The position numbers and the translations under genes are program-made. The notes under the pieces were generated by a model, which had not been told where the DNA came from, searched no databases, and saw nothing but the letters and a program-made list of their open reading frames with translations. From Thermoplasmata archaeon (GTDB lineage: Archaea > Thermoplasmatota > Thermoplasmata > Lutacidiplasmatales > UBA184): a DNA stretch of 64,000 bases. The stretch covers positions 1 through 64,000 of the forward strand of contig JAKIWI010000008.1 in the NCBI GenBank assembly GCA_022750115.1, given 5' to 3'. Each line of letters opens with the position of its first letter. Within the stretch, counting starts at the first letter, position 1. Shown piece by piece: positions 1,423 to 5,035 of the stretch.

Positions 1423-1548
1423 GTTCCGGTACTTCCGAATCGGAAGGTCGTACTAATCCCGGAGGTCGGGATCCCGGCCGCAGCGTTTCACGACCCCTCG
1501 CGGCCGGGCATCACCCTCCGGCCCACCTGACCTCGCTTCCGGACCATC

Positions 1549-2421
1549 ATGGCGGTATCCTCGCATCGACTCATTCCGGACGTCGCGTCCCTCGCCGAGG
1601 AGGGCGAGGTCGCGTCGTTCGTCCCGGAAGATCTGGCCTTCCCCCTCCGGACCGGCGGGTCGCTCTTCCCCGCCCGCTCCCGAGCCTCCGCGAGCGACGG
1701 CCGACTGTTTCCCGAGAGCCCGGCGATCTTCCCGTGGCTCGAGAGGGCGTTCGCTCCCGGCCGGGCGACGGTCCTGCTCGGTCCGGCGCGGCTCGTCGAC
1801 GGCTTCCTGCCGTTCCTCCTCGCCGCCGCCGTCGCGGAGGGCCGGGAGGTCTCGGTCCGCGACGGGGCGAACCGCCTCGCGCCGTACGCCATCGGAGCGA
1901 TGAGCCGGCTCCTCGGCGTGCGGCCGACCGACGCGCTCGCTCGCGTGCGGCTCGCCCGGGCGTTCACCGCCTACCAGCTCGTGACGCTCATGGAGTCGTG
2001 GGCCGAGTCGGTCGGGGTCCGCGACCCTCCGCCCTCGCTCCTCGTCGTCAACGACCCGACCCGGATGTTCTACGTCGACGACGTCCCGCCGGAGGAAGGC
2101 GAGGCGCTCCTCGCCCACGTCTCGGGCTGTCTCGGCCGCCTGGTCCGGAGCTCCCGGGTCCCGCTCCTGCTCACCGCGGTCGATTCGCCGGGCGATATCC
2201 CGGGCTGGGACCGCTCGGGACCCGAGGTCCGCGAACATCTGCGCCTCGTCCCGATGGGGCGCGGCGTCGCCCGCCTGGAAGCACTTCGCCAAGGCCGGTC
2301 GGTGGAGCTGATCTCGCTGCCCAGCCGGCAGCACCGCCTCGAGTCGTTCGACGAACCGGCCGTCGTTGGTGCGGAGGGGAGAGCATGGGACGGACCGTTC
2401 CCACCTATCGGGACGCTCTAG
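1549..2421 (+). CDS. RecA/RadA-superfamily-like protein with degenerate P-loop, linked to PolB
   Basis: 290 aa. The layout resembles a RecA-type core: a strand then 'VLLGPARLVDGFLP' at about 75-88, where a Walker A loop would sit but with no GK[ST]; helix 'LLAAAVAEG'; and a Walker B-like strand 'SLLVVNDP' at about 163-170. The missing lysine predicts no normal ATP hydrolysis. Its stop overlaps the next gene's start, and the polymerase follows at once, so the three are almost surely one transcript. By analogy with bacterial ImuA (an inactive RecA-like partner of a translesion polymerase) it may be a scaffold or recombinase-binding subunit. Family assignment rests on fold-level pattern only. 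Confidence 0.6.
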   Translation: MAVSSHRLIPDVASLAEEGEVASFVPEDLAFPLRTGGSLFPARSRASASDGRLFPESPAIFPWLERAFAPGRATVLLGPARLVDGFLPFLLAAAVAEGREVSVRDGANRLAPYAIGAMSRLLGVRPTDALARVRLARAFTAYQLVTLMESWAESVGVRDPPPSLLVVNDPTRMFYVDDVPPEEGEALLAHVSGCLGRLVRSSRVPLLLTAVDSPGDIPGWDRSGPEVREHLRLVPMGRGVARLEALRQGRSVELISLPSRQHRLESFDEPAVVGAEGRAWDGPFPPIGTL

Positions 2422-2714
2422 AGGGCCACCTCGCCCAGTGGGAGCGGGAGTTCGGCCGCTCGCTCAACGACCCGGCGGACCGCGAGAGCTTCCGGAGGGT
2501 CCAGCAGCGGGCGCGGCGCTACGTCGCGCAGGGGACGATGATGGCGACCGGCGACCTCGTCGAGCGGGTGTTCCTCTCGATCCTCGTCTCCCTCGAGCGC
2601 GAGCTCTACGACCGGGCGAAGAACCCCCGCCTCCCCGTCCCCGAGAGCGAGGACCCGTTCGTCGTCGAGCTGCGCCGCTCCCGGCCGCAGCGGCGCCTCC
2701 CGGCGCTGGAGTAG
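2385..2714 (+). CDS. Small helical protein between RecA-like gene and polymerase
   Basis: 109 aa, predicted nearly all helical ('AQWEREFGRSLNDPADRESF', 'DLVERVFLSILVSLERELYD'), ending in an acidic then Arg-rich tail. The ATG at 2385 is preceded by GGAGGGGAGAGC, one of the strongest Shine-Dalgarno matches in the window, and overlaps the end of the RecA-like gene by 37 nt, suggesting coupled translation. The stop lies 14 nt before the polymerase start. No family recognised. Its place between an inactive RecA-like protein and a polymerase suggests an adaptor subunit of one complex; that is inference. Confidence 0.7.
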   Translation: MGRTVPTYRDALEGHLAQWEREFGRSLNDPADRESFRRVQQRARRYVAQGTMMATGDLVERVFLSILVSLERELYDRAKNPRLPVPESEDPFVVELRRSRPQRRLPALE

Positions 2715-2728
2715 AGGCGGGGAGCCGG

Positions 2729-5035
2729 ATGCCCCGAGGCTGGGTCCTCGATGCGAACTCCTCGCTCGACGGCGAATCCGTCGTCCTCTGGCTGAAGGGC
2801 GAGGACGGCACCGTCGAGCGGCGGGCGTTCCCGTTCTCTCCGCCGTTCTACGTCGGCGGGGAGCGCGACCGGCTCGAGGAGCTCGGCCGGGAACTGAGTG
2901 AGGAGCCCCGCGTCGCCTCCGTCGAGCTCCTCGCGCTCCGCACCGACGTCTTCGAGCCGCTCGGCGCCCGCCGGCCCGTGCTCGCGGTCGTCCCGAAGCA
3001 CCACGGGAACCGCAAGCGGCTCGCGACGCACGTCGACGCCCTCGGCGGGTTCGTCTCGTTCACCCTCTACGACGTCGACCTCACCGCGCCGCAGCTGTTC
3101 TACATCGAGCGCGGGCTCTACCCGTTCGCTCCGGTGGCATGGAGCGGCCACGAGGTCCACGCGACCGAGTCGCCGACGACGCTCGACTACGCCCCGCCGC
3201 CGCTGAAGATCGCCCGCCTAGCGGTCGAGGTCCGGGGGGCGCGGCCCGGCCGCCCGCGGAACCCCGACGACCCGATCGCGCGCATCCACCTCGGCGAGAC
3301 GATCGTCGAGGCTTCGGACGAGCGGACGATGCTCGAGGAGTTCCGCACCGAGCTCGGGCGGCAGGACCCGGACATCCTCCTCACCCGCGGGGGCGACGAC
3401 TTCGACGTCCCCCACCTCTACCGACGGGCGGTCGCGAACGGGTTTTACGAGACGACGTTCGTCCTCGGTCGCGAGCCCGTCCACTTCGGCCTCAACCGCA
3501 AGGGGACGACGTTCGAGAGCTACGGGCGGATCCTCCACCGCGCTCCGACGTACCCGCTCGCCGGGCGCTTCCACCTCGACCTCGGGGAGCGGTTCGTCGA
3601 GGACGTCGGCCTCCTCGGCTTCATCGAGATGGCCCGCCTGTCGCGCCTCGGCCTCCAGGTCGTCTCGCGCCAGTCGCCGGGCACCGCGTTCTCCGCGATG
3701 GAGCTCGCCGTCGCCCTCGAGGACGGCCTCCACATCCCGTGGAAGAAGAACTTCCCCGAGCAGGAGAAGACGGCGGCGCTCCTCGTCGCCGCCGACCGCG
3801 GCGGGTTCATCCTCACCCCAAAGGTCGGCCTCGTCACCGACGTCGAGGAGTTCGACTTCGTCTCGCTGTTCCCCTCGATCATGGTCCAGCACAACCTGTC
3901 GATCGAGACGCTGAACTGTTCGTGCTGCCCCGAGAGCCCTCACACCGCCCCGGGGCTCGGTTACCGGTCGTGCACACGGCGGAAGGGGATCGTCCCGAGG
4001 ACCCTCGAGCCGATCCTGGCGCGCCGCCTCCACTTCAAGCAGCGTCGGAAGACGACGACCGGGACGGAGAAGGCCCGCTACGAGGAGCTCTGCAAGGCGT
4101 GGAAGTGGGTGCTCGTCACCAGTTTCGGCTACCAAGGGTACCGGAACGCCCGGTTCGGCCGCATCGAGGTCCACGAGGCGATCAACGCCTACGCGCGGCA
4201 GACGCTCACCGATCTCCTCAACTTCTCGCAGTCGGAGGGATGGAGCGTCCTCCACGGGATCGTCGATTCCCTCTGGATGACGGCCCCTCCGGGGGCCGAC
4301 GCCGAGGAGTTCGCGCGCCGCGTCACCGACCGGACCGGCCTCACGCTCGGCTACGAGGGGAAGTACCGATGGATCGTCTTCCTGCCGAACCGCGCCCACG
4401 GCTTCGGGGTCCCGCAGCGCTACTACGGCTACTACACGCACGGGGAGTTCAAGGTCCGCGGCATCGAGGTGCGGCGCGGCGACGCCTGCCGGTTCGTCCA
4501 GGGGGTTCAGCACGAGGCGCTCGACGTCCTCGCGAAGGCCGAGGACGCCGACGCGTTCCGGCTGGCGGTGCTGCGGGCGCTCGACCTCGGCCGGGAGCGC
4601 TCGGAGCGGCTGCAGCGCGGGGAGGTGCCGGGGAGCGAGCTCGTCCTCGCCCACCGGGTAACGCAGGAGCTCGGCAACTACCGGGTGTTCTCCGACGGCG
4701 TTGCGGCGATGCACCAGCTCGAGCAGGAGGGGATCGGCAAGGGACCCGGGCAGGAGGTCGGCTACCTGATCGCCGACCGCGCCTCGCGCGACTGGCGCCG
4801 CAAGGTCGTCGCGGAGGAGCTCCTGCGCGGCGATGAGGGGTACGACGCGCGGGCGTACACGGAGCTGCTCGCGCGCAGCTTCGAGACGCTGTTCTTGCCG
4901 TTCGGGTTCACGTTCGAGCGGATCCTCGACCGCTGGGGGTACGGCGCGCCGGTCCGGGGGTACCGGGCGAGCGAGCACCGCTCGACGGAGCACCCGGCGC
5001 AGACGCGGCTGAGCGGCGTGGACGAGCCGGCGTAG
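2729..5035 (+). CDS. Divergent family-B DNA polymerase (PolB2-like)
   Basis: 768 aa from ATG 2729. Polymerase motif A 'FDFVSLFPSI' (about 375-384, catalytic Asp kept), motif B 'KWVLVTSFGYQGY' (about 459) and motif C 'HGIVDSLW' (about 509), where the usual YGDTDS has lost its first Asp but keeps the second. The 3'-5' exonuclease domain is recognisable but altered: the ExoI region reads 'LAVEVRG' instead of D-x-E, and the ExoII-like stretch is 'DDFDVPHL'. Such changes are known in the archaeal PolB2 group. It may be a low-fidelity or translesion enzyme rather than the main replicase. It is co-transcribed with the RecA-like and small genes upstream. The 591-aa minus ORF over it is a shadow. Confidence 0.88.
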   Translation: MPRGWVLDANSSLDGESVVLWLKGEDGTVERRAFPFSPPFYVGGERDRLEELGRELSEEPRVASVELLALRTDVFEPLGARRPVLAVVPKHHGNRKRLATHVDALGGFVSFTLYDVDLTAPQLFYIERGLYPFAPVAWSGHEVHATESPTTLDYAPPPLKIARLAVEVRGARPGRPRNPDDPIARIHLGETIVEASDERTMLEEFRTELGRQDPDILLTRGGDDFDVPHLYRRAVANGFYETTFVLGREPVHFGLNRKGTTFESYGRILHRAPTYPLAGRFHLDLGERFVEDVGLLGFIEMARLSRLGLQVVSRQSPGTAFSAMELAVALEDGLHIPWKKNFPEQEKTAALLVAADRGGFILTPKVGLVTDVEEFDFVSLFPSIMVQHNLSIETLNCSCCPESPHTAPGLGYRSCTRRKGIVPRTLEPILARRLHFKQRRKTTTGTEKARYEELCKAWKWVLVTSFGYQGYRNARFGRIEVHEAINAYARQTLTDLLNFSQSEGWSVLHGIVDSLWMTAPPGADAEEFARRVTDRTGLTLGYEGKYRWIVFLPNRAHGFGVPQRYYGYYTHGEFKVRGIEVRRGDACRFVQGVQHEALDVLAKAEDADAFRLAVLRALDLGRERSERLQRGEVPGSELVLAHRVTQELGNYRVFSDGVAAMHQLEQEGIGKGPGQEVGYLIADRASRDWRRKVVAEELLRGDEGYDARAYTELLARSFETLFLPFGFTFERILDRWGYGAPVRGYRASEHRSTEHPAQTRLSGVDEPA

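Follow-up and report, generated by a model that had tools for sequence, protein, structure and literature searches.

A probable PolB2 mutasome operon in a Thermoplasmata archaeon, and a promoter dyad that relatives of the operon share with ribonucleotide reductase

An operon joining the archaeal polymerase PolB2 to an inactivated RadA and a protein of arCOG07300 was described by Makarova et al. in 2014 (PMC4104785). Timinskas et al. in 2025 named the three parts PolB2, iRadA and PPB2 and proposed by modelling that they assemble as a 1:1:3 complex; the gene order iRadA-PPB2-PolB2 is found in archaea and is the sole order in bacteria (PMC11791011). The Sulfolobus PolB2 (Dpo2) is an active and efficient polymerase despite an alteration of motif C of the same kind as the one reported below (PMC8764526), and Feng et al. 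found that it takes the part of an extender in lesion bypass and that mutagenesis induced by damage depends on it (PMC8764526, PMC7390963).

We analysed a stretch of 64,000 nucleotides from an uncultured soil archaeon of the Thermoplasmata (hereafter the window), in which three adjacent, co-directional genes follow the published order iRadA-PPB2-PolB2 (Table 1). The cassette is real: the open reading frames are as an earlier note on this DNA had described them, tightly packed with the first overlapping the second, and the overlap is 37 nt in a different frame. The arrangement is not due to chance, for relatives keep the three genes in this order. Since, in addition, the published sequence signatures in Walker A, the PPB2 N-terminus, the D(K/R) loop, motif C and ExoI are all present, we consider it very probable that the trio is a PolB2 mutasome operon, its mutasome role being assigned by analogy with those relatives. 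The system itself is already in the literature, and the present locus adds a member to it. What is added beyond membership is a PPB2 start inside iRadA with a strong Shine-Dalgarno sequence in the relatives, a PCNA-box-like motif in iRadA and a promoter dyad in common with ribonucleotide reductase.

Table 1. Features of the PolB2 operon, in nucleotide positions of the window
Feature	Position	Strand	Basis
iRadA, RadA/Rad51 fold with dead ATPase site, 290 aa	1549..2421	+	alignment, fold model
PPB2 (partner of PolB2), arCOG07300-like, 109 aa, N-terminus MGRTVPTYR	2385..2714	+	homologue alignment
PolB2, family-B DNA polymerase, 768 aa from ATG 2729	2729..5035	+	sequence, fold
Degenerate Walker A of iRadA, 78-GPARLVDGF-86, Asp84 at the lysine position	1780..1806	+	33-homologue alignment
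PCNA-box-like stretch of iRadA, 261-QHRLESFD-268, close to its C-terminus	2329..2352	+	conservation; short helix in model
Shine-Dalgarno GGAGG of PPB2, within iRadA	2373..2377	+	
PolB2 loop 336-IPWKKN...AADRG-359, D(K/R) motif = D356-R357	3734..3805	+	conservation; role from PMC11791011
PolB2 altered motif C 509-HGIVDSLW-516, Ile in place of the first catalytic Asp	4253..4276	+	alignment
GTTTCA ahead of iRadA, a half-site; either left over from the dyad of relatives or its single-site form	1485..1490	+	

The sequence likeness of iRadA to RecA is weak (Pfam Rad51, E=0.32; best PDB chain, a RadA, E=0.1), and neither iRadA nor PPB2 could be placed above the cut-off in Pfam or NCBIfam. The AF2 model of iRadA, with a mean pLDDT of 80 and residues 51-250 mostly above 90, retrieves exclusively RadA, Rad51 and Dmc1 structures as its top Foldseek matches (best E=3.7e-12, prob 1.00). 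The N-terminal 45-50 residues or so are disordered in this model, and the N-terminal helical domain of RadA is absent. The earlier note had proposed a RecA-like protein without the Walker A lysine, and this holds: the fold is that of RadA by structure, and the better alignment still shows no P-loop, with an aspartate at the lysine position. Alignment and inspection further show that the catalytic glutamate after Walker A has become alanine (DGAN, as opposed to DTEN in RadA). Among the triple-gene loci examined, GK[ST] occurs in a single one (L129), not necessarily at the Walker A position. The C-terminal motif Q-x-x-L/I/M-x-x-F/Y is kept in nearly all relatives of the 33-homologue alignment; the second aromatic residue is missing. 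The same kind of clamp motif has been reported in iRadA, where it is present in only a fraction of systems (PMC11791011), and we suggest that through it the complex may be held on the sliding clamp. An apparent conservation of 'EVIAW' at the iRadA C-terminus was rejected as a protein motif, as it reflects the Shine-Dalgarno sequence and start codon of PPB2 in the other frame. We also observed that the window's iRadA contains no lysine at all in its 290 residues, as is the case for about half of the family homologues; GC bias may explain this, and a lysine-free protein would also evade lysine-targeted modification.

PPB2 was identified by its published signatures, the MGRT arm and the conserved Arg9, together with the place of its gene, as a protein like arCOG07300. 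Within its N-terminus, residues G2, P6, T7 and R9 are invariant across 34 homologues. The gene starts inside iRadA. The two overlap by 49 nt in the larger part of the family, and by 37 nt in the window's subgroup. The 109-residue length given in the earlier note is correct; the strong Shine-Dalgarno sequence that it attributed to this gene is a property of the relatives, which carry the exceptional GGAGGTGATC, but not of the window, where the site is GGAGG only. This 10-mer would pair with the 16S tail over its whole length. A count on both strands of the 43 family loci gives 27 occurrences, every one at PPB2, against 0.6 expected from base composition; the Shine-Dalgarno sites of PolB2 in the family loci mostly match over just 3-5 nt. 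Because PPB2 is predicted to be present in three copies, the strong site of the relatives is plausibly a device of stoichiometry that provides for threefold PPB2, and the embedded ribosome-binding site offers a simple way into how subunit stoichiometry is set. Two loci (L170 on G065:C64 and L171 on G066:C48) encode extra short PPB2-like proteins that keep a GRTVPTW arm and apparently lack the rest of the body; possibly these are decoys or regulators of the complex.

Upstream of iRadA, the promoters of the family contain a dyad, GAAAC-N15-17-GTTTCA, followed by a TATA-like CTTTAGAG. The dyad is exact in 22 of 49 iRadA promoters and present with at most one mismatch in 37 of 49; the corresponding control figures are 0 and 2 of 893 stretches. 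We stress that it was first spotted by eye in these same promoters, so that the independent evidence comes from genome-wide counts and from the promoters of ribonucleotide reductase. The 23 family genomes counted contain 58 exact dyads as against 8 matches to a reversed-pattern control, with only a few exact sites per genome; a further 14 genomes, from elsewhere in the order and class, show no enrichment (88 against 82 controls). It recurs upstream of the class II (B12-dependent) ribonucleotide reductase (NF005122, PF02867, by profile search), exactly in 12 of 17 genomes and with at most one mismatch in 15 of 17, including, with one mismatch, the genome of the window. Reductase and mutasome share a contig in nine genomes, about 17-28 kb apart. 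The window's own iRadA promoter lacks the full dyad and has only the GTTTCA half-site; the promoter profile R1 finds no match there, and we therefore limit the claim to the relatives.

The shared promoter sequence suggests that the operon and ribonucleotide reductase belong to one regulon in the window's family, only partly visible in the window itself. Taken further, we tentatively propose a single small regulon, with a palindromic operator through which a damage regulator would switch mutasome and reductase jointly, and with the relatives' Shine-Dalgarno sequence setting threefold PPB2; we put this full proposal at a little short of an even chance. The dyad might instead be a general element of strong promoters and not an operator for damage or dNTP genes. 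It does lie directly upstream of a TATA-like box, and it is also found ahead of a creatininase-like gene and of a hairpin RNA; against a general element speak the small number of exact sites per genome, well above the control count in the family, and the recurrent targets, which are the mutasome and ribonucleotide reductase. We consider this account of the promoter possible, though on balance doubtful. The dyad is a concrete promoter element and the part of this work worth pursuing: if it is a damage operator, it would give an opening on archaeal damage regulation outside Sulfolobales, a little-known area. The novelty, a modest one, is that in relatives one promoter element stands before both the operon and the reductase gene, whose product makes DNA building blocks. 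We weighed the likeness of the dyad to the A(N)TTTC motif of Sulfolobus and did not accept it as homology.

Two further observations concern promoters. The hairpin RNA is a conserved RNA of about 80 nt that folds into one long hairpin, located behind a GAAAC/GTTTC dyad promoter at about 245490-245600 (-) of G000:C13 (L212), with homologues at L207, L208, L214, L218 and L221; two copies give z = -5.3 and -4.4, and the RNA has no Rfam match. In another genome a second iRadA promoter is present (G006:C106 and C107), for which an assembly chimaera is possible.

The assignment of the polymerase to family B is clear both from sequence (NCBIfam, PRK05761 types, 1e-110) and from structure (Foldseek, 5mdn, E=5.7e-40). 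Its motif C reads 509-HGIVDS-514 (HxxxD) rather than YxDTD, and its ExoI segment, ARLAVEVRG, has no DxE, with only remnants of ExoII and ExoIII; the other PolB of the genome keeps an ExoI DIE and a motif C of YSDTDS. The altered ExoI and motif C noted earlier are thus genuine. Nor does the sequence point to an active high-fidelity replicase, which would have spoken against the earlier note, as the residues of a high-fidelity enzyme are missing; and since the genome also encodes a normal PolB and a Y-family polymerase, PolB2 is not the replicase by default. The D(K/R) loop before motif A reads AADRGG, in which D356, G358 and G359 are invariant. The D(K/R) motif and the stretch preceding it are thought to bind iRadA (PMC11791011); in our monomer model the loop 336-359 is at lower confidence. 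In a related family of the class, a PolB2 (L051:5424-8120, -) carries an apparent intein after the motif B LVT (LVT/CLDS...LTHN/CFGYTGY).

Loss of the first motif C aspartate and of the exonuclease site could be read to mean that PolB2 is a catalytically dead scaffold for the control of replication, at its initiation or at the fork, and does not copy damaged DNA; a regulatory role linked with arORC2 was indeed proposed by Makarova et al. in 2014 (PMC4104785). However, the Sulfolobus enzyme polymerizes efficiently with a like change in motif C (PMC8764526), and it would be a mistake to describe PolB2 as no more than a dead enzyme. In addition, Asp376 of motif A, Asp513 (the second aspartate of motif C) and Lys459 of motif B are invariant, and we saw no orc gene adjoining the operon in the window. 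We therefore judge a dead scaffold to be quite unlikely, and favour a polymerase working within a PolB2 mutasome.

We searched 61 genomes, 60 of them relatives and one that of the window. In the window's family 32 of 37 genomes have PolB2, and elsewhere in the class it turns up in scattered families; the known range of the PolB2 mutasome now takes in a family of Thermoplasmata from soil and acid environments. PPB2 accompanies PolB2 in 37 of 39 genomes and occurs in no genome that lacks PolB2; the two exceptions are a locus truncated at a contig end and a PolB2 fragment. The synteny that the earlier note had proposed to look for in archaeal genomes is conserved, as all three genes occur together in 72 of 80 public GTDB loci, from Thermoplasmata, Methanomassiliicoccales, ANME-1 and Methanoperedens. 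At three loci (L078, L074 and L084) iRadA and PPB2 are not beside PolB2, and two of these three genomes keep both partners elsewhere, for which reason the link among the trio is unlikely to be mere hitch-hiking; in the genome of L074 all that was found is a PPB2-like protein that lacks the MGRT arm. Co-occurrence and the persistence of the partners after the operon has split thus provide independent evolutionary support. That the polymerase came from a mobile element or casposon-like unit, with the small genes incidental, we regard as scarcely credible: PolB2 does occur patchily (families f1, f5, f9, f11 and f16 have it, whereas f2 and f3, which belong to the same order, do not), but the same partners recur across distant euryarchaea in near-perfect co-occurrence, they persist where the operon is split, and the flanking genes checked are metabolic.

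Outside the trio no conserved flanking gene was found, and we therefore rejected a larger operon; downstream in the window lie an AAA-type kinase-like gene, OMP decarboxylase, a glycosyltransferase and pdxS. Several loci depart from the usual arrangement. An MFS gene interrupts the trio in L070, and a VapBC-type toxin-antitoxin pair (PIN + VapB; L109:3305-4090, -) lies between PPB2 and PolB2 in another locus. One genome has two diverged mutasome operons tail to tail (L117/L174, G067:C153), possibly through an assembly chimaera. The PPB2-like protein of the genome with the solitary PolB2 of L074 (L172, G062:C1:43766-43990) is full-length and starts with LRRVGPTYRR instead of MGRT.

We hypothesize that PolB2, being exonuclease-deficient and altered in motif C, would extend primers past or beyond DNA lesions, while iRadA, unable to use ATP, would dock on PolB2 at the loop that mimics the oligomerisation motif of RadA, and may link the complex to the sliding clamp through its C-terminal motif. 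PPB2 would join as a trimer, one of whose MGRT arms would reach in between the other two proteins close to the DNA, and in the family the dyad shared with ribonucleotide reductase could couple damage bypass to dNTP supply. Gene content, gene order, conservation, motifs, co-occurrence and the monomer folds of iRadA and PolB2 were seen here; polymerase activity, lesion extension and damage induction (in Sulfolobus) are taken from published relatives, as is the 1:1:3 assembly, which comes from modelling only. By analogy, the operon of the window would act as in those relatives, and recruitment of the polymerase by iRadA, as well as low fidelity, would presumably hold in the window's organism too. 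The idea of a dead RecA-like protein serving a low-fidelity polymerase, put forward in the earlier note, is right but not new, as published work on PolB2, PPB2 and iRadA proposes the same mechanism (PMC4104785; PMC11791011).

The closest known system is the PolB2-PPB2-iRadA mutasome, as in the Sulfolobus Dpo2 operon (PMC11791011), with which the locus has in common its three genes and their order, the MGRT arm, the D(K/R) loop, the loss of motif C, the inactive exonuclease, an inactive RadA core without the N-terminal domain and, less certainly, the clamp-box-like motif of iRadA. It differs in the 37-nt overlap of iRadA and PPB2 (49 nt in most relatives), in the disordered tail of about 50 residues at the N-terminus of iRadA, in the relatives' dyad promoter common to ribonucleotide reductase, and in that the orc1/cdc6, SRAP and DUF72 genes reported elsewhere are not among the adjacent genes checked in the window. 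The UV-inducible promoters of Sulfolobus, with their A(N)TTTC hexanucleotide (PMC5817253), likewise place an element containing TTTC ahead of the BRE/TATA of damage genes; that element is non-palindromic, however, in contrast to a GAAAC/GTTTC dyad spaced by 15-17 nt. The comparison with bacterial ImuA-ImuB-DnaE2 drawn in the earlier note stands as an analogy, in that a RecA-like accessory protein accompanies a mutagenic polymerase, but not as the closest system: ImuA-ImuB-DnaE2 has a C-family polymerase and a dead Y-family adaptor, whereas the three genes here include neither a C-family DnaE2 nor a Y-family-like ImuB, and the polymerase is of family B. The PolB2 mutasome is usually compared with E. 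coli Pol V (UmuD'2C-RecA). The two systems are not homologous, as Pol V has a Y-family polymerase, a UmuD' unrelated to PPB2 and an active RecA; they are nevertheless alike in their working, each bringing together an error-prone polymerase, a small oligomeric arm protein and a partner of the RecA fold.
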